A stretch of 64,000 bases of DNA from a virus, in IMG/VR virus record IMGVR_UViG_3300028377_000008, positions 16,690 to 80,689 of that record. One strand, written 5' to 3'. A program made the position numbers and the translations under genes. Position 1 is the stretch's first letter. Each line of letters opens with the position of its first letter. The notes below the pieces were generated by a model that saw only the letters and a list, made by a program, of their open reading frames with translations, searched no databases and was not told the DNA's origin. Positions 3,244-64,000 of this stretch are shown piece by piece.

Positions 3244-3292
3244 TTTAGCTTTTATGTAGTACTACTTTATACTTAACCAAAGGACGCTTCCT

Positions 3293-3697
3293 ATGTCAAA
3301 CTTGAAAAACCAACTTATTCGTTTGGGTTCTGATACCCCTGAACTTAGACCTCATCTCCAAAAAATTATTGCAGCGGTCGAAGTTAACGCTTCAGAAGAA
3401 GACTGGGATCCCGCTTATATCAAATATCGTGAGGAAAAGAAACAAGAGGCTATGAGATCCGTTAAAAAGGTCGGAAGACATCATTATATAGTATCTTATC
3501 GCGGTCAGGACACTGAGGTATCTTTCGATCCTCGTCAGATGAAATATTCTGTCCGGTTCGACGAAGGCACCGTGATCGTACAGATTTCCGGAACCGGACC
3601 CCGAAGTGTGAATGATCCCTCCCGTACTGGTGAGACGTTCGCAGCAGGTAAGATCGTGGATATGATTGAACTGTATAAAGAACAGTCTCGCATCTAA
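3293..3697 (+). CDS. Unknown protein with the PELR N-terminal module
   Basis: A 134-residue protein whose first 27 residues (NLKNQLIRLGSDTPELRPHL and on) match the module of the 1146 product. The remainder contains alternating hydrophobic strands (HYIVSYRGQDTEVSF, YSVRFDEGTVIVQI), suggesting a small beta-sheet domain of unknown function. A clear AAAGGA site precedes the ATG and a terminator follows the gene. Confidence 0.7.
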   Translation: MSNLKNQLIRLGSDTPELRPHLQKIIAAVEVNASEEDWDPAYIKYREEKKQEAMRSVKKVGRHHYIVSYRGQDTEVSFDPRQMKYSVRFDEGTVIVQISGTGPRSVNDPSRTGETFAAGKIVDMIELYKEQSRI

Positions 3698-17555: not shown

Positions 17556-18731
17556 ATGAAAGTAAAGATTAAAAATTTTCAAAGTATCAAAGAAGTAGAC
17601 TTAGAGATCAAGGGTTTCACTACCATTGTAGGGCGTTCTAATATAGGGAAAAGTGCAATTGTTAGAGCCATAGACGGCGCTCTTACTAATCTGGAAGGTG
17701 ATTCCTTTGTTCGTAAAGATGAACACCATACCGAAGTTCATATCCAATGTCCTGAAATAGATCTCCTTTGGAAAAAAGGGGGAGGGCATAACGACTATGA
17801 AATTAATGGGGAAAAATTAGAAAATGTTGGACGTGGATCACCCGAACATATTGGGGAAGCTGGGTTTAGAGATATCGAATCTAGTAGGTCCAAGATCAGT
17901 GTTCAAGTAGCTTCTCAGTTTAATCCAATTTTTCTTTTGGACCCTTCAAAAGTTACAGGATCCGAAGCAGCTGAGATTATTTCAGATATTGGGCGTCTGT
18001 CTGAGGTTCAAGTAGCTTTCCGAAATTGCCAGAAAGACCGTAAGAACCTGGACTCAGTAGTACGACTAAGAGAAAAGGATCTGGCGTCCACGCAAGAAGA
18101 GTTAAAGAATTATGACGAGTTAGAGGACGATATGAGACAAGTAGAAGAATTAAAAACACAGCATCATGATATAGGCGAATTTAAAGAAGACATTCGTCAC
18201 CTAGATACCCTTAAAGAAGAGAAAGATGAAGCTGATCTCATTGTAACGTCCCTTACCGGATTAGAAGAATTAGTTATTCCTAAATGGGATGGAGACAGTA
18301 TCCTTTCTGCTCTCAAAGCTTTTGAAGCTTTTTACGATATATCGTCAGAACAGACCTTGATTGTGGAGAGATATGAGGGTCTTTCCAATATTGAAATTCC
18401 AACTTTCGATGAAGCTGATTTGATCAACCTCCTAAGAACGTTAACGGTTTTCCAAAGTCATGTTACCTCTGCTCAAAAAGATGTGGCTATTTATGACGGC
18501 CTAGTTGATATTGATATCCCAGAGCCTAATGATATTCAAGAGCTTTATGATGAATATCAAGAATTGGAAGAATTATTAGAAGATTCTCAGCGATGTTTGG
18601 ATTCGATACCCCAATTAAAGTCCGAAATTGAAACGTTGAATTCGGATATAGAAGATGTAGCCAACGAAGTACATTCTATATTAGTAGACGCGGGAGAATG
18701 TCCCGTCTGTGGAGTTGAGGTAGGGGAATGA
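17556..18731 (+). CDS. Rad50/SbcC-like ATPase, N-terminal half ending at the zinc hook
   Basis: A 391-residue protein with the Rad50 N-terminal lobe: a KIKNFQSIKEVDLEI strand and Walker A GRSNIGKSA (Lys32). Coiled coil follows from about residue 160. The protein ends 6 residues after a CPVCG zinc-hook motif (Cys382, Cys385). The signature motif and Walker B are absent and are found in the separate gene at 24160. The two products presumably assemble into one split Rad50 that works with the Mre11 nuclease encoded next (ATGA overlap at 18728). The complex trims DNA ends for recombination, like T4 gp46/gp47. Confidence 0.82.
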   Translation: MKVKIKNFQSIKEVDLEIKGFTTIVGRSNIGKSAIVRAIDGALTNLEGDSFVRKDEHHTEVHIQCPEIDLLWKKGGGHNDYEINGEKLENVGRGSPEHIGEAGFRDIESSRSKISVQVASQFNPIFLLDPSKVTGSEAAEIISDIGRLSEVQVAFRNCQKDRKNLDSVVRLREKDLASTQEELKNYDELEDDMRQVEELKTQHHDIGEFKEDIRHLDTLKEEKDEADLIVTSLTGLEELVIPKWDGDSILSALKAFEAFYDISSEQTLIVERYEGLSNIEIPTFDEADLINLLRTLTVFQSHVTSAQKDVAIYDGLVDIDIPEPNDIQELYDEYQELEELLEDSQRCLDSIPQLKSEIETLNSDIEDVANEVHSILVDAGECPVCGVEVGE

Positions 18732-19708
18732 TTAAATTTACAGTGCGTACAGACTGTCATGTCCATGACAAAGCCCCTCAGAGCCGCGTAGACGATTACT
18801 TAACCACTTGCCTAGACAAGCTCAAGCAAGTTGGGATCTTTGCCTCTAGTAACGGCTGTGATGCTGTTCTAGACAATGGTGATTTCTTCCATGCTAAAGC
18901 AGCTACTAAGAACTCGCATGAAATGGTGAGAAGGGTTATTGATTTGCATCGTCAGTTTTATGACTGTCCGATCTATGAGAATCCCGGCAACCATGATTTT
19001 CCCTATAACAATATCAATTATTTGGAAAGGCAACCTCTACAGGTTCTTTTCTCCGCAGGCATTTTTACGCAGATGACAGATCACCTTTTTGAAGATGGGG
19101 ATCTGAAAGTGAGAGTTCTGGGATTCCCCTATAGAAGCGATTATGAACCAAAGGATTTTGATGTTGATAGGGGAGATGAGGATGTTTTGATCGCCTGTGT
19201 TCATGCAAGTGCAACTCCCAAAGGAGAGTTACTATTTGCGGGCACAGAAGAAAGCCTTTCCTATTTTGACCTATCGGAATGCAGCCCAGACTTATTTGTA
19301 TTTGGCCACCTTCATGTGGACCAAGGTATTCAGAAGGTTCAGGGAACTACCTTTATGAATCTAGGGTCAATGACTCGGGGTTCTTTGGTACAGGATAACC
19401 TGACTCGCATTCCACGTTTCGGATATATTGAGATAGGCAAAGATGTGGAAGGAATTGTCTCTATTAATACTGAAGCTATTGAGTATGAAGTGGAAGATAG
19501 CGATAACATTTTTGATCTAGAGAGACACCGCCGTCTCGAAAATGAGAAAAGAGATATCGACCAATTCATCTCCTCTTTAACTGCTAGCGCAGAAGATGAG
19601 GATGAGGATGATATTTTTACCACCATCCGATCGCTTTCATCTTTTAGAGGTGAAGTACAGAGCAAAGCAATTAAGTATCTCGAAGACGCGATGTTAGATA
19701 ATGACTGA
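18728..19708 (+). CDS. Mre11/SbcD-like nuclease (gp47-like)
   Basis: A 326-residue calcineurin-like metallophosphoesterase. Metal ligands are visible in order: TDCHVHD (Asp9, His11), LDNGDFFH (Asp52), NPGNHDF (Asn88, His89), a CVHAS motif and FGHLHVDQG. Residues beyond about 230 form an acidic, helical capping region. With the split Rad50 it should form the exonuclease that resects DNA ends to give substrates for RecA. It overlaps the Rad50 N-half gene by four bases, so equal expression is likely. Confidence 0.87.
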   Translation: MIKFTVRTDCHVHDKAPQSRVDDYLTTCLDKLKQVGIFASSNGCDAVLDNGDFFHAKAATKNSHEMVRRVIDLHRQFYDCPIYENPGNHDFPYNNINYLERQPLQVLFSAGIFTQMTDHLFEDGDLKVRVLGFPYRSDYEPKDFDVDRGDEDVLIACVHASATPKGELLFAGTEESLSYFDLSECSPDLFVFGHLHVDQGIQKVQGTTFMNLGSMTRGSLVQDNLTRIPRFGYIEIGKDVEGIVSINTEAIEYEVEDSDNIFDLERHRRLENEKRDIDQFISSLTASAEDEDEDDIFTTIRSLSSFRGEVQSKAIKYLEDAMLDND

Positions 19709-53454: not shown

Positions 53455-54078
53455 ATGTCAAATATGCCTGGACAGGCGAGTGATGATTTCAAAGGTGCAT
53501 CTTCGGCCCTCCGTATTCTATATGTAGGACATCGCAACTCGTTTGCTGCTGAACTTACCACTGATGGTTTCACTCAAACCAATCCTCCCGTCGTAGACGC
53601 AGCGGGTACCCGCTCCGAGCGACTTGCAACAACTCCCAAGTACGGTGTCCTTTCAGGATCCGTCGCTTTCACCCGACCAGATGCCGGTAACGGTTTTGTC
53701 GGGGGTCCCGTAGCTGATACTGCAGCTGCTGGAGCTGTGCGTCCTCTTGGTCTTTTCATTAACGATGCTGCTGGCAACGCTTATGAAAATACTCCTGGAC
53801 CCGCTTCTGGCAAAGGTCCTTATGTCTCATCTCAGGGAACCATGGGTTCCATGTTGTATGAAACACAGCAGCTTGTAGTTGCTACTATTGGAGACGCTCT
53901 TGAGTATGGCGCAGGGGACTTCCTCTATGCTTCTCAGAACGGGTACCTCACTAACTTAGTTGGTGATGCTCACGTTGAACTTGACGGTGGAGACGCTGCT
54001 GACGCAACGGTACTCGGAGTTGTTAAAATCGCCCCTGATAACGCACACGCAGAAGTCCTCTTCGACCTGCGCGTTTAA
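53455..54078 (+). CDS. Putative head decoration or minor capsid protein
   Basis: A 207-residue protein rich in Gly, Ala, Thr and Val with beta-strand character (GVLSGSVAFTRPDAGNGFVG, LYETQQLVVATIGDALEYG) and few charged residues, unlike most products here. An AAGGAG site precedes it and it lies just before the major capsid protein gene, where decoration (cement) proteins are usually found. Codon choice looks optimised for high expression, with many C-ending codons. No specific family is identified. Confidence 0.6.
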   Translation: MSNMPGQASDDFKGASSALRILYVGHRNSFAAELTTDGFTQTNPPVVDAAGTRSERLATTPKYGVLSGSVAFTRPDAGNGFVGGPVADTAAAGAVRPLGLFINDAAGNAYENTPGPASGKGPYVSSQGTMGSMLYETQQLVVATIGDALEYGAGDFLYASQNGYLTNLVGDAHVELDGGDAADATVLGVVKIAPDNAHAEVLFDLRV

Positions 54079-54099
54079 TCTTAGACTGGAGGAATCCAC

Positions 54100-54978
54100 A
54101 TGTCTCAAAATTTAGATAATGCTGTAAAGCAAAAGATCATCAGCGAGTATATTAAAACCGCTGCTGGTCGTGCCAAACTAGCAGCTTCGATGATTCAGCC
54201 CCTTCGTACCCGCCGAGATTATACTTCGGTTGGACGAAAGACTTTTCTCGTCGAGCAACTCCCCGATGGCGCTCTCCCAATTTATGACAAAGATCCCGAC
54301 GTAACGGCTTATGTCGTAGGTGAAGAAGGTGAGAACATTCTCGCTATTCAGAAGCCACGTCGAGTAATCTTTCCCTTATTCGAAATCGCTTCCAACCCAG
54401 AAATTCCTTTGACTCAGATCAAAGAGCGTCGTTTCGACCTCATTGAAAGAGCCCAGGATCTTGCGAAAGCACAGATTCAGGCTGCTGAAGACGAGAGAGT
54501 TTTTGCAGTTCTCGATTCCATCGCAGTTTCCGGATTCGATAACATGAGCGGTCAGACTAACCCTGACCAGCAGGTTGTTGCACCAATCAACTCTTCTGTA
54601 CTAGCTGATGCTTTTGCAGAAATCGAAAGACACGACCTTCGTGTTGCTCGAATTTACATGAATGCCCGTGATTACGGTGATATTCGTAAGTTCGGTCGAG
54701 AAATCCTCGATATCGAATCTCAGGCTACTTTGCTGAAAACTGGTCTTATGGCTACCCTTTGGGGCGCTCAGATCATCGTTTCTCGGCTTGTACCACCCGG
54801 ATACGTTTATGTATGCTGCGATCCGGAAATGTTTGGGCGTATCCCCGTTCGTACCGAATTGACGGTACTTTCGGCTGATGACCCGAAGTCTAGAACCATC
54901 GGATTTTCAGTTTTTGAAAACCTAGGTATCGGTGCCTTCAACCCACGCGGCCTTTGTCGTCTGGTTGTACAGCGCTAA
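54100..54978 (+). CDS. Major capsid protein, HK97-fold
   Basis: A 292-residue protein with a strong GGAGG site. Its features fit HK97-type capsid proteins of large phages: an N-terminal arm, the VGRKTFLVEQLPDGALPIYD strand pair, a long helical stretch (FDLIERAQDLAKAQIQAAED, the spine), a DSIAVSGFDN turn, and the A-domain VARIYMNARDYGDIRKFG. It ends with GFSVFENLGIGAFNPRGLCR, typical of the family. Cleavage by the protease is not obvious. A hairpin and terminator end the unit immediately after. It is the main shell protein. Confidence 0.87.
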   Translation: MSQNLDNAVKQKIISEYIKTAAGRAKLAASMIQPLRTRRDYTSVGRKTFLVEQLPDGALPIYDKDPDVTAYVVGEEGENILAIQKPRRVIFPLFEIASNPEIPLTQIKERRFDLIERAQDLAKAQIQAAEDERVFAVLDSIAVSGFDNMSGQTNPDQQVVAPINSSVLADAFAEIERHDLRVARIYMNARDYGDIRKFGREILDIESQATLLKTGLMATLWGAQIIVSRLVPPGYVYVCCDPEMFGRIPVRTELTVLSADDPKSRTIGFSVFENLGIGAFNPRGLCRLVVQR

Positions 54979-55016
54979 ATATCCCTCTCAGCTAGTCTGA
55001 GAGCCGGTTTTACCGA

Positions 55017-55047
55017 CCCCCAGTCCTCACGGGCTGGGGGATTTTTT
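55017..55047 (+). terminator. Intrinsic terminator after the major capsid gene
   Basis: A 10-bp stem, CCCCCAGTCC with GGGCTGGGGG (one wobble), then a T run. A perfect CTCTCAG/CTGAGAG hairpin (54985-55003) lies just upstream and may protect the 3' end. Confidence 0.93.
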
Positions 55048-55372
55048 ATGTTTAGAGTTTTCTATATTGAAACAAAATTATGTTATGAAAATATCATTTG
55101 AAACGATCCGCTCCTGCATCTGTTTCAAACCCTCTTTTCGGAATAAATGCGGAATTTTACAATATTTAATACGTGAAAGGGGGTACTAGAGTCTTAAAGT
55201 TACATGCAAATACAAATTAATTGAAATTATTAAATTAGCGTTATTGTTTTATAGTAAATAGAATTTAATTACTCCACTAGAAAACTTAAAAAGATGTTCA
55301 TATATTTAATAAATGAAACAATATAAATTATAAATGTTTCATTATACTAAATTCCAAACATAGGATATTGTA
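55048..55372. other. AT-rich non-coding segment flanking the endonuclease gene
   Basis: About 325 bases, visibly more AT-rich than the surroundings, without a convincing gene. It holds perfect inverted repeats TTTGAAAC/GTTTCAAA (55097-55129) and AATGAAACA/TGTTTCATT (55312-55343, loop of only A and T). The composition change begins right after the capsid terminator, consistent with sequence brought in with the endonuclease. No group I intron core was recognised. Confidence 0.6.
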
Positions 55373-56374
55373 GTGCCTAGAAAACTAACTCTTAACGATC
55401 TTGAAAAAACTGCTAATTCTAAGGGAGGTACATGTCTAGCAAAGGTTTATAACAGTGCCAAAACACCTATTACTTGGGAATGCTCACAGGGACATCAATG
55501 GAAAGCTTCTCCAGATAATGTCCGAAATAAAAATAGCTGGTGTCCTCACTGCGCCGGAATGGCTAAAAATTCAATTGAAGATGCAAAAGATCTTGCCTCC
55601 AAAAACAAAGGGAAGTGTCTTTCCAATAAATACATAAATAATAGAAGGCCCTTACTATGGGAATGCTCAGAGGGACACCAGTGGGAATCTACTTTCCACT
55701 GTGTGCAAGACTTAGGATCTTGGTGTCCTCACTGTGCTGGAAATATTCGTTTAACTATTGAAGAAATGGAAGAGTTGGCTATTGATCGTGGGGGTCTATG
55801 TATTTCTACTAATTATGTCAACACAAGCACAAAACTTAGATGGCAATGTAGTGAGGGTCATAAGTGGGAAGCCACTCCAGATAACGTAAAGAGAGGAAGG
55901 TGGTGCCCCGAGTGTTATACTAGTCTTGGAGAACGTTTGGTTAGGTGTGTATTTGAGCAAGTGTTTGATGCTAAGTTTCCTACTTCATACCCAAAGTGGT
56001 TAAAAACCAAAAGAAATACTCAAATGGAGTTAGACGGGTATAATAAATCTCTTGGCATCGCTTTTGAACACCAAGGGGAACAGCATTTTTCTTTTACAAG
56101 AATCTTTCATAAGGACAAAGCAGCTTTTAAAAAACAAGTTAAAAGGGATAAGAAAAAGAAAGCATTGTGTAATGAGCATTCTGTGGTATTGATAGAGATA
56201 CCAGAAATACCTTCTTATACCTCAATTTCTAATCTCCAGAATTACGCATTAGAGACGTTAGAAACATCAGGTATTAACATCTCAAATGAAATGAGGGCAA
56301 AAGAAATAGATTTTCTGGATGCTTATGTTTTTAGCCATTCTACGAAGCGCCTAACACTACTTAGAAAGTTCTAA
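55373..56374 (+). CDS. Homing-type endonuclease: three zinc ribbons plus PD-(D/E)XK nuclease
   Basis: GTG start with an AGGAT site. The 333-residue protein has three tandem zinc-ribbon repeats of the form C-x3-H-x15-C-x2-C (Cys37/His41/Cys57/Cys60; 98/102/118/121; 159/163/178/181), each with W-E/Q-CS-x-GH-x-W. A nuclease domain follows: GERLVRCVFEQVF (Glu187), MELDGYNKSLGIAFEHQGEQ (Glu219, Asp221, Glu232) and a basic helix. This matches free-standing phage endonucleases related to Vsr-type and PD-(D/E)XK enzymes. The AT-rich gene and flanks indicate transfer from another genome. It likely cuts relatives lacking the insertion. Confidence 0.8.
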   Translation: MPRKLTLNDLEKTANSKGGTCLAKVYNSAKTPITWECSQGHQWKASPDNVRNKNSWCPHCAGMAKNSIEDAKDLASKNKGKCLSNKYINNRRPLLWECSEGHQWESTFHCVQDLGSWCPHCAGNIRLTIEEMEELAIDRGGLCISTNYVNTSTKLRWQCSEGHKWEATPDNVKRGRWCPECYTSLGERLVRCVFEQVFDAKFPTSYPKWLKTKRNTQMELDGYNKSLGIAFEHQGEQHFSFTRIFHKDKAAFKKQVKRDKKKKALCNEHSVVLIEIPEIPSYTSISNLQNYALETLETSGINISNEMRAKEIDFLDAYVFSHSTKRLTLLRKF

Positions 56375-56435
56375 ACTCATTCAACCCCTTCGTGAGTTTT
56401 ATTCCTCTTCGACAAACCAAATAGGGAGACGCCAA

Positions 56436-57938
56436 ATACCTTACGAACTAATTGTAAATATTGTAGAAGAAGACCTATTTCTCTTAACATGGTTCGTAGA
56501 GGGGAATTGGACGTTTGACGGTTTAGATGTTCATGTTCCAACCCGTAACTCATATAGCAAAGCGGATCGAAAACGTCTCTGTAAACTATTACGGGACCTG
56601 GGATTTGAAAAAGCCAAAATAAAAGGTAACCTCATTATTATGGAAGGTCAAGGTTCCCATGTCAAGAAGAGAATAGAGGCTTATACCTTGGAGTCAGATG
56701 ACATTTCTTTTCTTCCTGATATTCTAGAATTAAAGGTTAAAGTGCCGAAAAAAGATATCACCCCACAAAAAGCTGCCCTCCTTAACCAATTCTTTGGCAT
56801 GTCTTTTGACCAAATGGAAACGATTTACGGCGTCCCCAAAGTAACGTGTTGGAGACGGGCAAAGAAGTGTGACACCGATTATAGCTCGCATAATGTGTTA
56901 TCCCTGGAGGCAAGTGAGAGTCTTCTGGAGGACATAGACTATGAGGGGTGGAATGACCTTGATAATGAACAACAGATTCTTGACAGGGAAAGGGCTATTG
57001 ACATACTATTAAGGACTCCTTTTCCCGAACCTTTCCAAGTAGTAGATAAACAGTTTCGTTTAGAGTTTCAAAAATTATCCACAAAAGAGATGGCGCTTAA
57101 CGAAGAAAAAGAAATAAGACCTAATTCTTATTATGGATTGGAACTATGCAGACCTTATTTCCTTAATCGGTACAAAGCGTTAAATTCAGAAGCTTCAATG
57201 TCCTGCAGGGAAGGATGGTATGACCGAGATCAATTAAAACAAGCTGTAACCTTTCAGTTAAAATATGGGTCACCTGTTACCCCTAAGAGAGTAAGGCGAG
57301 CTTTACAAGCCAATCTGAGGACTCCTACCCTATTCAAACCTGCACAAGCTAAGTTCATTTGTGATACCTATGGTCAACCCGGAGGTTGGTATTGGGATCC
57401 TTGCTGCGGCTATGGAGGTCGTCTCTTGGGAGCAATGTCTTCTCAAATGAACTATATAGGTACTGACGTTGATTTGGAAACGGTAGAAGGCAATAGGAAA
57501 ATCTATAAAGACTTGAAGAGATTGGGTCAGGTCGGAGATCTAGAAGCTAGGATAGTACATCAAGAAGCTGAACTTTTTGATATATCCAGACCTTTGGATC
57601 TAGTATTCACAAGCCCTCCTTATTTCGATCGTGAGCAATACTCTTCTGCAGATGGTCAGTCGTACTTAAACTATGGGTCGACAGCACAGGATTGGACTGA
57701 CGGGTTTTTGAAGCCTATTTTCAAGACTGCCCTTACCCACTTAAAGGAGGGTGGGTACTTAGTCATTAATATTGCGGATCTGAATGACAGCAATAAAACG
57801 AAAGAAACAGTTCCTCTAGTATCTCTTACGACTTCCTGTGCTGTTTCTCTGGGCTTTGTACACGAGGACACGTTGAGAATGCCTCTGTCTAATTTGAGTT
57901 ACCGAGGATACGAGCCTGTTCTGGTATTCAGGAAGTGA
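56436..57938 (+). CDS. DNA methyltransferase (SPPY type), start codon unclear
   Basis: The first ATG is at 56640, but the frame stays protein-like upstream (EEDLFLLTWFVEGNW, then RKRLCKLLRDLGFEKAKIKG). An AGGGAG site at 56423-56428 is correctly spaced from an ATA at 56436, giving about 500 residues. The enzyme has a helix-turn-helix-like segment (MSFDQMETIYGVPKVTCWRR), a SAM-binding motif WDPCCGYGGRLLGAM and a catalytic LVFTSPPYFDREQYS, so it is an alpha-type order amino-methyltransferase, most likely N4-cytosine. Either ATA is used as start or the 5' end was lost when the endonuclease gene inserted 61 bases upstream. Confidence 0.75.
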   Translation: MPYELIVNIVEEDLFLLTWFVEGNWTFDGLDVHVPTRNSYSKADRKRLCKLLRDLGFEKAKIKGNLIIMEGQGSHVKKRIEAYTLESDDISFLPDILELKVKVPKKDITPQKAALLNQFFGMSFDQMETIYGVPKVTCWRRAKKCDTDYSSHNVLSLEASESLLEDIDYEGWNDLDNEQQILDRERAIDILLRTPFPEPFQVVDKQFRLEFQKLSTKEMALNEEKEIRPNSYYGLELCRPYFLNRYKALNSEASMSCREGWYDRDQLKQAVTFQLKYGSPVTPKRVRRALQANLRTPTLFKPAQAKFICDTYGQPGGWYWDPCCGYGGRLLGAMSSQMNYIGTDVDLETVEGNRKIYKDLKRLGQVGDLEARIVHQEAELFDISRPLDLVFTSPPYFDREQYSSADGQSYLNYGSTAQDWTDGFLKPIFKTALTHLKEGGYLVINIADLNDSNKTKETVPLVSLTTSCAVSLGFVHEDTLRMPLSNLSYRGYEPVLVFRK

Positions 57939-57969
57939 GTTACTAAGAAAAAGGGTAGAGAAATTAGTA

Positions 57970-58110
57970 ATGACTACTACCACTACTACCGGAACCCCTA
58001 AGACTAACATAGATACTTTTCTTTTTAACCCTTCACCTAGACCTCCTAATTCTATCACTTTTCTATTTATATTTCCAATAGGGAGAAGCACTCTCTTTAT
58101 TGCAATTTAA
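57970..58110 (+). CDS. Possible 46-residue peptide
   Basis: An ATG at 57970 opens a frame encoding MTTTTTTGTPKTNIDTF, then a proline-rich and hydrophobic segment ending at 58110. The ribosome binding site is weak and the composition is simple, so this may be a chance frame in the 190-base gap. Confidence 0.25.
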   Translation: MTTTTTTGTPKTNIDTFLFNPSPRPPNSITFLFIFPIGRSTLFIAI

Positions 58111-58128
58111 ATCCTTGGAGATTTTCCT

Positions 58129-58989
58129 ATGTCGAAACTAAAAAAGAAACTTATTAAGCTTTCCCGTAAACATCCTGAATTTAAGGATGAATTTCTGTCC
58201 TTTGCGAAAAAGAAAGCCTCCTCTATTCCTAAAGAATCTGTACATCAAAAGATAGCCATTAATGAAACGACGGAACGATTCATTAGATGGGCGCAGATGA
58301 GGGACGAGGCTACCAAGGTAAGGGACATGGTTAAGTTTATTGAGCGTGGTTGGGGGATAGAGGTAAAAGAGCCTAAAGGAAAGAAACCTAAGGGTGCGTT
58401 GAGGTGGGAGAAAGGGGATAAATGTCTGATCGAAACAAAATCCCATAATAATGAAACGACTCTTGACATCTATGAAGAGTTTGAAGGTCAGGAAGGCATC
58501 ATTATTGAAACCGAAGAGCAGGATCCTTCCCTAAAGCAAGGGAAATATGGGGATGTTATGGCTCGTTTCAATGGTAAAGAGGTTCGGTTGCCTGAAGCTC
58601 AGAAAGGTAGGTATATCGGCATCAAAAAGCCTAAATTCAATTTTCAAGATGATGGTAGAGATCATATAGAAGCCATTTATAGTAGTGACCCATCGAGTCA
58701 ACCCTCCCCTGAACAGATTGCTATTTCAGAGTCCTATGTATTGAGGGGGGAGAGAAGGGGAGAAGACAGGTCGTTTAAGTACTATACGGGACCTCCCATT
58801 GGTATGGTAAGCCGCTCTAGTGGCGTTCAGTTGGGCTTTATTGCTGCTCAAAGAGGTTTTAAATATCGATCTTTCAATCCTGCCAAAGGGAAACTTCTCT
58901 ATTTAGGAAAGGGAAACAAAAGACCGTCCTCTTGGAAAAACGAATATGCTGATATGATCCGTGAGGCACAGGATAAAGAGGACAAATAA
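58129..58989 (+). CDS. Unknown protein with a PELR-like N-terminal module
   Basis: A 286-residue protein with a TTGGAG site. The first 28 residues (KLKKKLIKLSRKHPEFKDEF) are a diverged version of the shared module. Residues about 90-170 have KOW/SH3-like strands (WEKGDKCLIETKS, EGQEGIIIETEE), possibly a small beta-barrel. No family recognised. A terminator follows. Confidence 0.65.
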   Translation: MSKLKKKLIKLSRKHPEFKDEFLSFAKKKASSIPKESVHQKIAINETTERFIRWAQMRDEATKVRDMVKFIERGWGIEVKEPKGKKPKGALRWEKGDKCLIETKSHNNETTLDIYEEFEGQEGIIIETEEQDPSLKQGKYGDVMARFNGKEVRLPEAQKGRYIGIKKPKFNFQDDGRDHIEAIYSSDPSSQPSPEQIAISESYVLRGERRGEDRSFKYYTGPPIGMVSRSSGVQLGFIAAQRGFKYRSFNPAKGKLLYLGKGNKRPSSWKNEYADMIREAQDKEDK

Positions 58990-59050
58990 TCTGAGAACTT
59001 TCCGACCGAACTAAGTTCTCACTAGTTATCTTCTGTATAACATTTGCACA

Positions 59051-59086
59051 AAACCCCGTGACCTTTCTAATAGTCATGGGGTTTTT
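59051..59086 (+). terminator. Intrinsic terminator
   Basis: A 12-bp stem, AAACCCCGTGAC with GTCATGGGGTTT (one wobble), then Ts. A GAGAACTT/AAGTTCTC inverted repeat lies just before it (about 58993-59021). Confidence 0.9.
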
Positions 59087-59209
59087 CATGGTGTCCTACC
59101 CCAATCCATCGGTTTGTCAATTCTTTCTATATACCCTGGTCTCATCTGAATTACAAAAGTTTTTTCAAATACTTCCCCTAAAACCTCCTGTCTTCCATAA
59201 TTTAGAGGA

Positions 59210-59261
59210 TAGTTAGGATCGTCTGTATAATAATCCTTTTGTTATTGACTGATCCTAACTA
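59210..59261. repeat. Inverted repeat around a -10-like box
   Basis: TAGTTAGGATC (59210-59220) and its exact complement GATCCTAACTA (59251-59261) enclose TATAAT (59226-59231). It lies 30 bases before the 59292 gene, in a 200-base gap without other features. It may be an operator or an RNA hairpin in the leader. Confidence 0.55.
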
Positions 59262-59291
59262 TTACATCTTTACTAAAGGTTCTTCCCCACT

Positions 59292-59807
59292 ATGGAAAAG
59301 AAAGCTGCAATGATTTCAGGTCTATTTAACCTTCCCCAAAAGGGTGACGTTGTTGAGTCTGTTAGTGTAGACCGTTTGACTGCCCTCGTTAAATTTACTA
59401 GGGGTCCCTCTGTTATTTGTCATGTGTCTGATATAGACATCTTGCGGGAGGGAGAGCATCGTGATAATGCTCTCAAATGGATCAACACTCTTCTGAATAT
59501 TCCCAGATCTGGAGTATCCGAAGACCCTCTAAGAGGTCTACTGGGAAGAGAAGAAACAGAATTCCTTATTAGAAAAGTTATAGAGGACCCTAACGTTGCT
59601 GATGCTAGACACCTTCATGACCTATTGTTCAGGGCTCTCTTGCCTGATGAATCTATTCAACGATATAATGACTACGGCATCCCTATCTTCAATCAGGCAA
59701 GTGATATTCCTGTTTCCTTTTTGAATATCTTGCGCACGGAGTCATTTAGAACCTCCAAGATCGCAAATAAAGTTGCTTCCCGAGTTGCTTCCTCTCCTAA
59801 GAAATAA
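59292..59807 (+). CDS. Unknown protein
   Basis: A 171-residue mostly helical protein without a recognised domain. It ends SKIANKVASRVASSPKK, with two copies of the K/R-V-A-S motif found in several virion proteins. An AAAGG site lies 12-13 bases before the ATG. It stands alone between a structured leader and a long non-coding region. Confidence 0.6.
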   Translation: MEKKAAMISGLFNLPQKGDVVESVSVDRLTALVKFTRGPSVICHVSDIDILREGEHRDNALKWINTLLNIPRSGVSEDPLRGLLGREETEFLIRKVIEDPNVADARHLHDLLFRALLPDESIQRYNDYGIPIFNQASDIPVSFLNILRTESFRTSKIANKVASRVASSPKK

Positions 59808-59866
59808 TCCTGCTTCATTTCTATTTCAAAAATCCCTTTAGTGTCTTATCCTCCTTATCATCCTTG

Positions 59867-59947
59867 TCATTTCTTTTCGTGACAATGTCACGCTAAAGGG
59901 GTTTTGTTTCTGGACCCTCATTTCTTTTCGTGACAATGTCACGCTAA
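59867..59947. repeat. Two direct 30-bp repeats, each with a CGTGACA/TGTCACG palindrome
   Basis: The copies at 59867-59896 and 59918-59947 are identical over 30 bases and start 51 bases apart, close to five helical turns. Each contains CGTGACA-A-TGTCACG, a perfect 7-bp inverted repeat typical of a dimeric DNA-binding protein site. Confidence 0.9.
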
Positions 59948-60235
59948 TCTCGTAGTTAACTCGCCAGTTAAGTCGAGTTAAGGGTACTTATTAATATTTC
60001 CAAGAACTAGCTGCCTTTTTGTTTCCGAAACAAAAAAGAAATAGCCCAGGTTCTCGAAGATCCAAAAACCAATGGTGCGTCACTTTCGGACTTAATCCCG
60101 TTCGGGAAAATATAGTGACGTTCCTAACCTCCTTTCAAAGTTTCGGTTTCGGAAACAATTTAGATATCGATATCGAAGATCTATTTATAATTAGTATTAG
60201 TACACCAAATCACCTTCTCCCGGTTTTACGGTGTA

Positions 60236-60268
60236 GCCCCTCCCATTAATTTGGCGAGGGGCGTTTTT
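60236..60268 (+). terminator. Intrinsic terminator in the non-coding region
   Basis: GCCCCTC (60236-60242) pairs with GAGGGGC (60256-60262), followed by five Ts. It implies that a transcript crosses this region in the plus direction, either readthrough from 59292 or a non-coding RNA. Confidence 0.8.
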
Positions 60269-60346
60269 ATTTTTATCACTATTCTTTTTATTCATTGTAG
60301 GAGTGAGTGATCATACCAAAGACCTTTTCTCATTATAGAGAGTGCG

Positions 60347-60808
60347 ATGGCGAACCTGAAAGACCAACTTATTAAGTTAGGGAACTCGAACCCCAATCTC
60401 AGGGATCATTTAAGACCGATCCTTGATATTCTCAAAACCGCTTCTAAGGATAAGGCAAAAAAATGGATAGCTAGAGATACAAACCATTTTTTATCCAAAC
60501 TCCAAAGAATGGGGCTAAGAAACCTCAGAGAAGACGTTCAAATTACAAATGAGGAACATACCTCACATGGTTGGACACTAGAAGCGTACATGGCGGTACA
60601 TCTAGAGGAATATTCCCTAAAGGAATTAGCAGATGTCCTTAATTCTAGGGAAGGTAGGGAAGCAGTCACTTTTCGTAATTCTTTTTATCCTATCACCGAA
60701 GAAAAACTTAATTCTGCAATCGATGAGCCGGTCCTTCTAGGGGGGGAACACGAAGGAGAATTAGAAGACCTTGCCCTTATTGCAGATTTCACCTGGGATT
60801 CATACTAA
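60347..60808 (+). CDS. Unknown protein with the PELR N-terminal module
   Basis: A 153-residue protein beginning NLKDQLIKLGNSNPNLRDHL and RPILDIL, followed by KTASKDKAKKW. The remainder is alpha/beta without a known motif. It precedes a second module-bearing gene by 22 bases, so the two may derive from a duplication limited to their 5' ends. Confidence 0.7.
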   Translation: MANLKDQLIKLGNSNPNLRDHLRPILDILKTASKDKAKKWIARDTNHFLSKLQRMGLRNLREDVQITNEEHTSHGWTLEAYMAVHLEEYSLKELADVLNSREGREAVTFRNSFYPITEEKLNSAIDEPVLLGGEHEGELEDLALIADFTWDSY

Positions 60809-60830
60809 ACCTTTTACAGGAAACCTTATC

Positions 60831-61841
60831 ATGAAAAATTTAAAAGAACAGCTTATTCGCCTTGGTCATCAAAAACCTGAATTGAGAACTCATTTAAGAC
60901 CCGTCCTTGATGTGGTCATAAGTAATGACGAGGTCAATTCCGAATTCGATATGCATTCTCGCTTTGAAAAAGGAAAACCTGCTGACCCCACTGAGAATAT
61001 GTCAGAGGAAGATGCTATTAAGTGGAAATATTTTAACGAAAAATACGATGATAAGTTTAAGGATAAAGAATCTTCCGTAAAAGAACAACTTATTCGACTT
61101 GGTTCTGAGGATCTAGAGCTACGTCCGCATCTTATCCCTGTATTAAACCATTTGTCTTCGCAGACTAAAGTGGCTCATCTGAATTTGAAAAAAAATAAGT
61201 TCATTCATGATATTGTTCATTCTGAATTACAGGATGCTCACCGCGATCTTGCACAAGCCCTAAAAGGTACTCCATTGGGGGTTGATTTCACTAATAAGGC
61301 TCATTGGATTAAACAAGCCTCGGTACGAGTTAACCTTGCTCACCTTATTCGCAAGGGCTATCCACCTAATAGCGGAATGACAATTGACAGTGATCTAAGT
61401 AATGCTCAAAATGCTGCGATCAAATCTCTAAGGAAACAAGGTGTTTTTGATGGTGTGAGACCTTCTTATCCCGATCTAGAAAATTTAGAGAAGGGAGGTT
61501 ACACTAAAGAGGCAGATCTCTTGAGAGATGAGATCCTTAGAGTTAGTGCATTAGGAGATAGTGAAGGGGAATTTACTTACCAAGCTAGGGTTTTTGTTGA
61601 GGTCATAGCAGGAAATTCCAGCGATTTTACCTTCAAAATTGTCCCTAATTGGTTGGCAGAACATCCACAACATCGACCAGAGTCAAGTCATGGTATGGTC
61701 GCAGGTAAGGTAGAGAAAGTAGTATTGCCTCAGGATGCCGATGAGTCTGAAATCCGTAGGGCTCTACAACCTTTACTAAAATCCGCAGTTAGGGATTTGG
61801 TGAAAAATAGACAATCTATTTCTCAACTTATGAATCTGTGA
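60831..61841 (+). CDS. Unknown protein with two PELR modules
   Basis: The ATG at 60831 has an ACAGGA site; an upstream in-frame TTG at 60771 lies inside the previous gene. The 336-residue protein has module one at residues 2-28 (NLKEQLIRLGHQKPELRTHL) and module two near 82-108 (SVKEQLIRLGSEDLELRPHL), separated by a charged linker. The rest (about 110-336) contains a helical domain and a beta segment (EFTYQARVFVEVIAGNSSDF). Function unknown. A terminator follows. Confidence 0.7.
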   Translation: MKNLKEQLIRLGHQKPELRTHLRPVLDVVISNDEVNSEFDMHSRFEKGKPADPTENMSEEDAIKWKYFNEKYDDKFKDKESSVKEQLIRLGSEDLELRPHLIPVLNHLSSQTKVAHLNLKKNKFIHDIVHSELQDAHRDLAQALKGTPLGVDFTNKAHWIKQASVRVNLAHLIRKGYPPNSGMTIDSDLSNAQNAAIKSLRKQGVFDGVRPSYPDLENLEKGGYTKEADLLRDEILRVSALGDSEGEFTYQARVFVEVIAGNSSDFTFKIVPNWLAEHPQHRPESSHGMVAGKVEKVVLPQDADESEIRRALQPLLKSAVRDLVKNRQSISQLMNL

Positions 61842-61870
61842 AACTAATTTCTAGTATATAGTTTTAAGAG

Positions 61871-61903
61871 CCTCACTTTCTCACGTAGGAAGTGAGGTTT
61901 TTT
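61871..61903 (+). terminator. Intrinsic terminator
   Basis: CCTCACTT (61871-61878) pairs perfectly with AAGTGAGG (61890-61897), then six Ts. Confidence 0.93.
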
Positions 61904-61942
61904 ATTGCTTATTACTTCTACTTATGGTATTTTAAGTCAATC

Positions 61943-62170
61943 ATGACTACAAAAATACAAGAAGCTGCTACTCTTATTACACAAGCCTCTAAAATTGTTA
62001 TTTTTCCTTGGGGCAGGACGTGTGTTGATGTCGTCTGATGATCCTCTCTACAGACAATTAGGATTTTGTGCTTAATGGAGAATAGGTATTCAGAATTTCA
62101 ATTTCAGATCACATTTTCTCATCCCAATGGAATTTATGACGAGGCTCCTACCTTGAATACCTTGCATTAA
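61943..62170 (+). pseudogene. Decayed coding remnants, possibly sirtuin-like at the start
   Basis: In the 321-base gap after the terminator, an ATG at 61943 encodes TTKIQEAATLITQASKIVIF before losing the pattern and stopping at 62038. This resembles the start of Sir2-type NAD-dependent deacylases, where GAG(I/M)S would follow; GAG is found one frame over. A second short frame (62075-62170) and another in a different frame after about 62135 (YLEYLALIKDGRNN) also look protein-like. The pieces suggest one or two genes broken by frameshifts. Evidence is limited to short matches. Confidence 0.3.
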
Positions 62171-62224
62171 TCAAAGATGGGCGAAATAATAGCCTTCTTG
62201 TTAACCTAGAAAAGAGGAATTACA

Positions 62225-63376
62225 ATGAAAACGACAGTAAATGAAAACCGATTTAGAACTGAATACGGTGATGAACTTTTTGCAGAATATCAGGACATTT
62301 TGGAAACGGAAGACCCAGTAAGAGCCTTAGCTTTTGCGATTGGTCTTGCAGAATTTGTTCATAATGTGTTTCGACAGCCTACCCTTTCCTCCCCAGACAG
62401 ATCTACCATTTTCCAGAAAGTGTGGAATATCCCTGGTCTGGTTCATGGAAATCTCGATAATTTCCTATCGCCGCAACGAATTATGTTTCGGAATATCAAT
62501 GCTAATGGAATTAGCAAAATTCTGGAGAATGCCTTTGATGGTATGACGGGAAGTAATCAAGCTAGGGCTAAGAGTATCAAACATCTCCCTTATCTAATCG
62601 AAAGACTGATGCCCTTTGCTCGTCAAGCTTTGAAGTCTGAGATCCTTTTTGACCTTCCTACTGGCCCCATTTCGGAGCGTAATGAAAACTATGATCTGCC
62701 CTATCGTAATGCATTGGCGTACTCTCAGGTTCATAACAGACTGGTTTCCGCTTTCTTAAGAGCGTCTAAGCGCGACGTAGAGACTGCTAAAAGGGAAATG
62801 AGTGCCTTCGCCCTTCAGCATCTTAATGACAATGCTAGGTCAGTTTTGTTTCAGATCATTGTTTTTCAGGAGGAAGACAAAAACTTCACCCGAGAGGATA
62901 TTGTTGAAGTTTTGGATTCCACTAGTGGGAAAGTCCAAAAAGGGCTGAAAGAACTAAAAGAGAGCGGTTTCCTTCTTAGAAAAGATCGTAGTCCTATTCG
63001 ATGTGCTGAATTTGTTTTTGAATTCAACATCCCGGATAATGACGCTGATGAGGAGGCAACTTCAAGCCAAGAAGCTCTGGCTAACGTAGTCTCCAGTGAG
63101 AATGATGAAGATATTTTCAATGTTTCTTTTGAAACAGTAGATGAGTTATTCCCTAATGAGGATGACGAAGATACGACCCTTGAGGACCCGTCTCGAAAAC
63201 GGTTTCAGAAGTTTAAAAAATCGTCTAGTCCCTCAACAGGTATTCTTTCTCAAAATGGAGCATTCCACCTGGCACCACAGGAAGAAGGTTTGTTGAAGTT
63301 TGCAGCAAACAACGGCTGGCCACTAAGCGTTTCTGTAGATGAAGAAGGTAAGTTGCAGTTCTCTTTCATGTTCTAA
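62225..63376 (+). CDS. Unknown protein with a winged-helix-like segment
   Basis: A 383-residue protein with a GAGGAAT site. Residues about 220-255 (FTREDIVEVLDSTSGKVQKG, LKELKESGFLLRKD) form a typical winged helix-turn-helix, suggesting DNA binding. The N-terminal 200 residues are helical and the C-terminal 120 are acidic, then beta-like. It ends at a bidirectional terminator and is the last plus-strand gene in the window. A regulatory role is possible but unproven. Confidence 0.65.
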   Translation: MKTTVNENRFRTEYGDELFAEYQDILETEDPVRALAFAIGLAEFVHNVFRQPTLSSPDRSTIFQKVWNIPGLVHGNLDNFLSPQRIMFRNINANGISKILENAFDGMTGSNQARAKSIKHLPYLIERLMPFARQALKSEILFDLPTGPISERNENYDLPYRNALAYSQVHNRLVSAFLRASKRDVETAKREMSAFALQHLNDNARSVLFQIIVFQEEDKNFTREDIVEVLDSTSGKVQKGLKELKESGFLLRKDRSPIRCAEFVFEFNIPDNDADEEATSSQEALANVVSSENDEDIFNVSFETVDELFPNEDDEDTTLEDPSRKRFQKFKKSSSPSTGILSQNGAFHLAPQEEGLLKFAANNGWPLSVSVDEEGKLQFSFMF

Positions 63377-63837: not shown

Positions 63838-64000
63838 TCAATCCTTTTCGTTGTCACTTTCGTTGAGAATGGCAACTGCGTCCTCATCTCGTGCCTCAAT
63901 TACCGCCCCAGCCAACTCATTTGTTACGACCTCAGATCCCATTTGCTCCATTTCTGAGAGGATATTGCAAGCAGCCCAGTGTTTACAAACCTTGGAATCG
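63838..64000 (-). CDS. Unknown protein, C-terminal part
   Basis: A frame on the minus strand is open from the right edge to a TGA at 63838-63840 and encodes a C-terminus including DSKVCKHWAACNILSEMEQM and an acidic end (ILNESDNEKD). It ends six bases before the ATG of the next gene, indicating an operon. The start lies beyond the window. Confidence 0.55.
   Translation of the reverse strand, partial: DSKVCKHWAACNILSEMEQMGSEVVTNELAGAVIEARDEDAVAILNESDNEKD

Follow-up and report, generated by a model that had tools for sequence, protein, structure and literature searches.

A gene-free, palindrome-rich region in a megaphage genome fragment, tentatively read as a transcription-control and structured-RNA cassette

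We tentatively propose that the region at 59808-60346 of a megaphage genome fragment is a non-coding cassette combining transcription control with a structured untranslated RNA. Its repeats, its hairpins, the geometry of its terminator, the significance of its fold and the absence of a gene are properties of the DNA as observed. In the proposed arrangement, a long stem behind the gene at 59292-59807 would stop much of the transcription of the upstream unit. Behind it would come tandem hairpins, of which two share the 30-bp repeat as their basis. A structured RNA, untranslated and roughly 70-280 nt long, would come next and end at an intrinsic terminator (60236-60268), with the next unit beginning at 60347. 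We infer the transcription of the region and the start of its transcript, and likewise that the hairpins work in terminating transcription and in stabilising or processing the RNA, and not as DNA sites for proteins.

All coordinates are those of the window, the 64,000-nt stretch of DNA analysed, which comprises bases 16690-80689 of a linear virus record of 80,689 bases; the record ends at window position 64,000, 3.7 kb beyond the region. This 80.7-kb fragment derives from a megaphage related to phage G and to LR745208.1, a 485-kb uncultured phage in which 33 of the record's 76 ORFs find a match, mostly within two runs where gene order is preserved. The major capsid gene (54100-54978, plus strand; PHROG 2522, E 2.6e-51) encodes a protein 85-89% identical to those of 80 loci kept from 492 relatives, 85% identical to that of LR745208.1 and 39% identical to that of phage G. 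Comparisons with "37 related records" below refer to 36 of these 80 capsid-bearing viral loci (the larger contigs) together with LR745208.1. All selected ORFs from 53,455 to 63,376 lie on the plus strand, and the region sits on the capsid side of the megaphage gene map, where it is perhaps lineage-specific. The stretch 54979-56374 holds an HNH homing endonuclease gene (PHROG 559), placed behind an AT-rich gap (GC 0.30) that follows the capsid gene; at E 1e-6, LR745208.1 contains nothing that matches the endonuclease gene.

The gene upstream of the region (59292-59807, plus strand) encodes an orphan protein of 171 aa, with no PHROG match and no Pfam match above cut-off. The downstream gene (60347-60808, plus strand) encodes a 153-aa protein starting with the leader motif LKDQLIKLG, a short motif common to other proteins; PHROG and Pfam searches gave it no family, and it is an orphan by the searches made. 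Beyond it, the gene at 62225-63376 (plus strand) encodes a 383-aa orphan protein with weak winged-helix signals, a candidate palindrome binder. Its Pfam match to DnaD_N (E 0.0064) falls below cut-off, and PADLOC returned PDC-M05A (E 9.3e-5) and Csa3 (E 1.9e-4), the latter a CRISPR-associated regulator. No relatives of the proteins encoded from 59292 and 62225 were found in viral contigs or in the 37 related records, the empty result for the 37 records being uninformative absent a positive control. The gene-order comparison failed because these two flanking proteins gave no relatives.

An N-terminal motif like MxNLKEQLIRLGxxxPELRxHLRPVL is common to several otherwise different proteins, at positions 1125, 3293 (gap 3244-3391), 37552, 51549, 58129, 60347 and 60831 and internally near 61078, and is present also in LR745208.1 (MTTLRSKLIRLAHENPALRPQLLPLLKE) and in L081. 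As a guess, this could be a leader that directs proteins to the virion or is cleaved by a protease. The protein at 60831-61838 contains a KGKPADPTENMSEEDAIKWKYFNEKYDDKFK-like module that recurs about 3-8 kb behind the capsid gene, often several times in one locus, in at least about 25 relatives among the matches listed. The gap at 61842-62224 resembles, by eye, decayed coding sequence with shifting frames. A sirtuin-like reading of this gap received no confirmation from follow-up searches.

Within the region itself, the longest ORF has 76 aa, begins at TTG and by eye lacks a Shine-Dalgarno sequence, in agreement with the original prediction that no gene is present. In collections that may lack the records closest to the window's own, a blastn search of 59100-61400 against phages gave no match, while 59808-60346 searched at E values up to 10 returned 18 records with a best E of 0.5. 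Compared with 157 loci, the region matched its own locus only, and a covariance model of 60001-60160 (R1, one sequence given twice) matched only itself among 42 sources. Against the 37 related records the region has a single DNA match (E 2.8e-4), to the reverse strand of the capsid gene.

Two identical 30-bp repeats lie on the plus strand, copy 1 at 59867-59896 and copy 2 at 59918-59947. As predicted, each carries a perfect palindrome, CGTGACA-A-TGTCACG (CGTGACAATGTCACG), at 59878-59892 and 59929-59943, respectively. The spacing given earlier as five helical turns holds approximately, the 51 bp from start to start corresponding to 4.9 turns at 10.5 bp per turn. When the 80,689-base record was searched, as had been suggested, the repeat proved to be the sole exact direct repeat of at least 17 bases outside selected ORFs, and the pattern GTGAC(0-5)GTCAC was found twice, both times in the region. 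The other symmetric sites that had been pointed out were recovered as well. GTTTC-N-GAAAC occurs at 60021 and 60146 and nowhere else in the record, the second as the palindrome GTTTCGGAAAC (60146-60156), and the palindrome GATATCGATATC (60163-60174) has its sole occurrence there; no strand applies to either. The TTAA boxes TTAACTCG and CGAGTTAA can, by sequence, form a plus-strand stem-loop at 59956-59981, in which 59956-59963 pairs with 59974-59981.

Counting arms of at least 6 and loops of 0-12, the region has eight inverted-repeat centres, compared with a mean of 1.9 (sd 1.5) in first-order Markov shuffles, of which 7 in 1000 reached eight or more; two smaller sets, of 200 shuffles each, had averaged 2.1 and 1.6. 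Eight centres are reached by two of 297 overlapping windows of the record, the region itself being included among them. Expressed as a z-score, the value is 4.6, against a best of 4.5 (L124) in 31 long gaps of relatives, which were scored with 20 shuffles each in loci of at least 12 kb only. The excess of inverted repeats is real, though not extreme, and the description of the region as palindrome-rich stands.

The 15-bp palindromes could instead form a cluster of operator or other protein sites, bound by a dimeric protein (for example the candidate encoded from 62225) that controls the unit from 60347. Their perfect symmetry, the identity of the copies, their spacing of about five turns and their absence elsewhere in the record all suit such a function, as do the winged-helix signals of the 62225-63376 protein. 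Further, in each of two viral contigs of 41-43 kb the palindrome occurs twice at a distance of 32 bp and also a third time, and sites of such shape may therefore serve other phages, a finding that slightly strengthens the operator reading at the expense of the cassette, although the two contigs are unrelated by anything tested. By eye, genes near those contig palindromes show a ParA-type ATP-binding motif and a resolvase-like start. CGTGACANTGTCACG is present there in three copies per contig (L007 at 2963 and 2995 with L072 at 7186; L043 at 2694 and 2726 with L020 at 3949). We nevertheless regard an operator cluster as unlikely. Copy 1 belongs to a terminator-like stem, no plus-strand promoter-like site adjoins the copies, and a weak minus-strand site (9/12, 59885-59857) overlaps copy 1. 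Over 75 other viral stretches, 59 of 77 palindromes fall inside ORFs, most other occurrences are single, and no site shares more than 24 of 30 bases with the 30-bp copy. The palindrome turns up in these stretches about as often as chance would give, on a rough estimate with an assumed collection size, and the 19-base repeat core is found in five bacterial contigs, with about two expected by estimate.

The stem that encloses copy 1 spans 59829-59905 on the plus strand, 59829-59844 pairing with 59890-59905, and has an A tract before it and a T tract after it. It begins 21 bases behind the stop codon of the gene at 59292-59807 and looks like the terminator of that gene, so the claim that the flanking genes do not explain the clustering of symmetric sites was too strong. 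Beyond the TTAA stem-loop, plus-strand hairpins are found at 60003-60054 (AGAAC...TTTTTGTTTC-C-GAAACAAAAA...GTTCT), at 60078-60120 (CGTCACT ... AGTGACG, by sequence and fold) and at 60201-60235 (TACACC ... GGTGTA, by fold). The last of these is followed by an intrinsic terminator at 60236-60274 (GCCCCTC...GAGGGGC with a T-rich tail; plus strand, sequence and fold), in which 60236-60242 pairs with 60256-60262 ahead of GTTTTTATTTTT. This stem is present in both the MFE and the centroid fold, and its GC-rich stem of at least five pairs and its T-rich tail confirm the final terminator of the original prediction; a separate terminator scan omitted 60236-60262, the loop being longer than that scan permits. 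The plus-strand segment ACCTCCTTTC (60127-60136) is anti-Shine-Dalgarno-like and predicted to be mostly unpaired, with a value of 73-77% for CCUCCUU. CCTCCT occurs twice in the region (P 0.02, not corrected for the choice of motif). On the plus strand this Shine-Dalgarno complement is found at 58042, 59184, 59850 and 60128, and the gaps that bear it are 57939-58128, 58990-59291 and 59808-60346.

The plus strand folds with a z-score of -5.5 over 59808-60275 and of -4.3 over 59990-60275, with the minus strand close to the former (z -5.1). Five other gaps among 18 in the phage reach -4.8 to -5.5; two of these, 54979-55372 and 58990-59291, lie close by and contain hairpins and a terminator. A terminator also stands behind the capsid gene, both here and in L078 and L081. 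A plain reading of the region (terminator, string of hairpins, untranslated RNA, terminator) is preferred because the fold is not unique and terminators occur elsewhere. No plus-strand promoter-like site was found inside the region, and the stronger of the two minus-strand sites (10/12) lies at 60138-60109; promoter-like sites in the 10-kb stretch number 26, no more than chance (20.3 expected, sd 4.2). Rfam 15 gave no match in the window at the gathering score and five weak matches (E 1.7-4.7). The earlier proposal of a structured RNA is supported by the fold statistics and the terminator, and receives no support from conservation or from an Rfam family.

The cassette reading draws its support from the fold z-scores, the end terminator and the position of the first stem 21 bases past a stop codon, and also from the similarity of nearby gaps, the terminators of the capsid genes and the plus-strand ORFs throughout. 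Against it are the lack of a plus-strand promoter-like site, the similarly good fold of the minus strand and the failure to find a homologue. The exact duplication of 30 bp, unpaired flanks included, also exceeds what a terminator needs.

A replication origin, suggested by the original prediction, could likewise account for clustered palindromes and direct repeats, and gene 62225 has its weak DnaD_N-like signal. An origin here is very improbable, and the suggestion is unsupported by the searches made. Two patterns revealed no DnaA box, no AT-rich stretch is present (57-68% AT in 100-bp windows), and the proposed GC-skew check, once run, showed a cumulative skew that flattens after about 55 kb without a turn before the record ends, 3.7 kb past the region. 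In LR745208.1 the skew minimum lies at about 430-435 kb, whereas the place matching the region, judged by distance from the nearest matched gene in a partly syntenic genome, is at about 391-394 kb; this evidence is weak because skew follows gene strand too.

CRISPR arrays consist of regular repeats separated by spacers of about 25-40 bp. A virus-borne mini-array of two 30-bp repeats and one 21-bp spacer would explain identical repeats with dyad symmetry and capsid-like sequence nearby, and could be linked to the weak Csa3 match of gene 62225. Its 21-bp spacer is short, however, and the 36 nt of capsid-like sequence are not within the repeats. A scan of ten proteins (of 76 ORFs) detected neither a Cas effector nor an adaptation protein, the best Rfam CRISPR match scores 15.8 bits against a cut-off of 39, and the 19-base repeat core occurs once each in the five bacterial contigs, never arrayed. 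As it stands, the layout does not make a CRISPR array, and a mini-array here is extremely unlikely. Compact arrays are present in huge phages, and some of their spacers are directed at the structural genes of other phages (PMC7162821). The virus-borne mini-CRISPR arrays of PMC6858448 resemble the region in that a virus genome carries a small number of repeats along with sequence similar to a gene found in related viruses; the region departs from them in its repeat-spacer arrangement, in the length of the spacer and in where the matching sequence lies.

The capsid-like sequence is a 36-nt stretch at 60044-60079 that reads RTIGFWIFENLG on the minus strand and matches, in antisense orientation, the 3' portion of the coding sequence of the major capsid gene in related megaphages. 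At the matching site the capsid protein has RTIGFSVFENLG in this phage and in 27 of 44 recovered capsid genes, and RTIGFSCFENLG in the other 17; a motif search recovered these genes from 44 of 80 loci (36 were dropped), and 43 of the 44 plus the phage's own gene were used for comparison with the fragment. The best match of the 80 is the L079 capsid gene (31/36 nt, E 4.9e-6 in the phage's own record), followed by L099 and L094 (30/36 each), all from relatives with a GC of 0.55-0.56. The phage's own capsid gene matches at 24/36, near the bottom of the 44 rows and tied with L155. Lying nearer to relatives than to the own gene, the fragment is more likely foreign than copied from that gene. Ten of its 12 codons specify identical residues. 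Outside the two changed codons, differences fall in third positions in 1/1 cases for L079, 3/3 for L099 and 7/8 for the own gene, a pattern that makes the fragment look like former coding sequence and favours a scar over a sequence shaped for pairing.

The match exceeds its controls at the DNA level. Its best local score is 26, where sets of 60 and 25 shuffles peaked at 19 and 17, respectively; its E of 1e-4 in a 1.5-Mb set compares with a best of 0.004 among 200 shuffles; and among 16 other gaps and 17 that were reversed, the best E was 0.038. At the protein level, a profile HMM of the major capsid protein (81 sequences) reported L080 only above 4 bits and left the window region unreported, and tblastn of the capsid protein gave E 0.14 at the fragment and the same E at 62025-62108. 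In a profile scan of 13 gaps, the gap of the fragment and 61842-62224 both scored above all 100 shuffles. Protein-level scan scores can mislead, because 61842-62224 scores without DNA-level support in the matching frame (13 with the own gene and 19 at best elsewhere, with 25 shuffles reaching 17). No viral contig carries the fragment with its four variable bases left free, and none has a gene encoding TIGFWIFENLG. When the L079 capsid gene was compared with the 37 relatives, no second DNA match like 60044-60079 appeared; the matches included one at E 2e-8 in G028 and three of 17-27 nt near E 0.009. Short capsid-like segments of 18-90 residues are found inside otherwise different ORFs of related megaphages (L080 at 18419-18847 on the minus strand, G034, G016, G028, G027, G023 and G013).

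A recombination scar may account for the capsid piece; an antisense RNA against competitors is a less likely alternative. Extended to the whole region, the scar reading makes it a resting place for decayed gene pieces, the reversed capsid fragment among them, with most hairpins functionless. The codon pattern of the fragment and its greater closeness to relatives of GC 0.55-0.56 than to the own gene agree with this, as does the gap at 61842-62224, whose resemblance to decayed coding sequence is by eye and unconfirmed. We consider it doubtful for the region as a whole, as it leaves the identical 30-bp repeats, the palindrome excess and the well-formed terminator unexplained.

The antisense reading starts from a complementarity to capsid mRNA that exceeds chance (E 4.9e-6 with L079). 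A plus-strand RNA from the region would be partly antisense to capsid mRNA, pairing better with the mRNA of relatives than with the phage's own. The predicted duplex with L079 capsid mRNA has an energy of -71.0 kcal/mol, compared with -36.5 (sd 4.7) in shuffles, and that with the phage's own capsid mRNA has -41.3, compared with -30.4 in shuffles (sd 4.6; best of 100, -44.9). The linker at 60053-60072 is predicted to be 61-66% unpaired against an average of 45-46%, a mild preference. In these models the pairing, the unpaired linker and the CCUCCUU motif fit an antisense RNA without demonstrating one. Under the most far-reaching version, a phage sRNA would use the linker between its hairpins against a strongly conserved stretch of the capsid mRNA of competing megaphages, its own gene escaping by mostly synonymous divergence, and would amount to interviral RNA interference without CRISPR; we judge this very unlikely. 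Among the papers listed in a literature search by titles and the starts of abstracts, none described a comparable Cas-free antisense RNA, which leaves its absence unproven.

The reversed piece of capsid gene is the part worth following up. Should it act, it would provide one giant phage with a Cas-free means to hinder the coat protein of another; should it be inactive, it would be a record of short-fragment recombination between megaphages of different base composition. A cassette of terminators and untranslated RNA is itself ordinary for a large phage, though here it would mark where one transcription unit probably gives way to the next, in a group of megaphages that has received little study.

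Other known systems also offer comparisons with the region. The paired repressor operators of temperate phages likewise have two identical palindromes on nearly the same face of the helix, but no repressor gene or divergent promoter was found beside the palindromes here. Trans-acting antisense small RNAs are a type of bacterial sRNA, and with these the region shares a structured RNA with a terminator, a linker that is predicted to be partly unpaired and is complementary to the mRNA of another gene, and a mostly unpaired CCUCCUU; it differs in that the complementarity lies deep in capsid codons and is poor for its own mRNA, and in that no plus-strand promoter was found inside it for the putative transcript. 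The intrinsic (Rho-independent) terminators of phages share with the region a GC-rich stem followed by a T tract, one of them directly behind a gene. Relative to those, the first stem of the region holds a 45-nt loop with a hairpin of its own and the repeat, and more tandem hairpins come after it.
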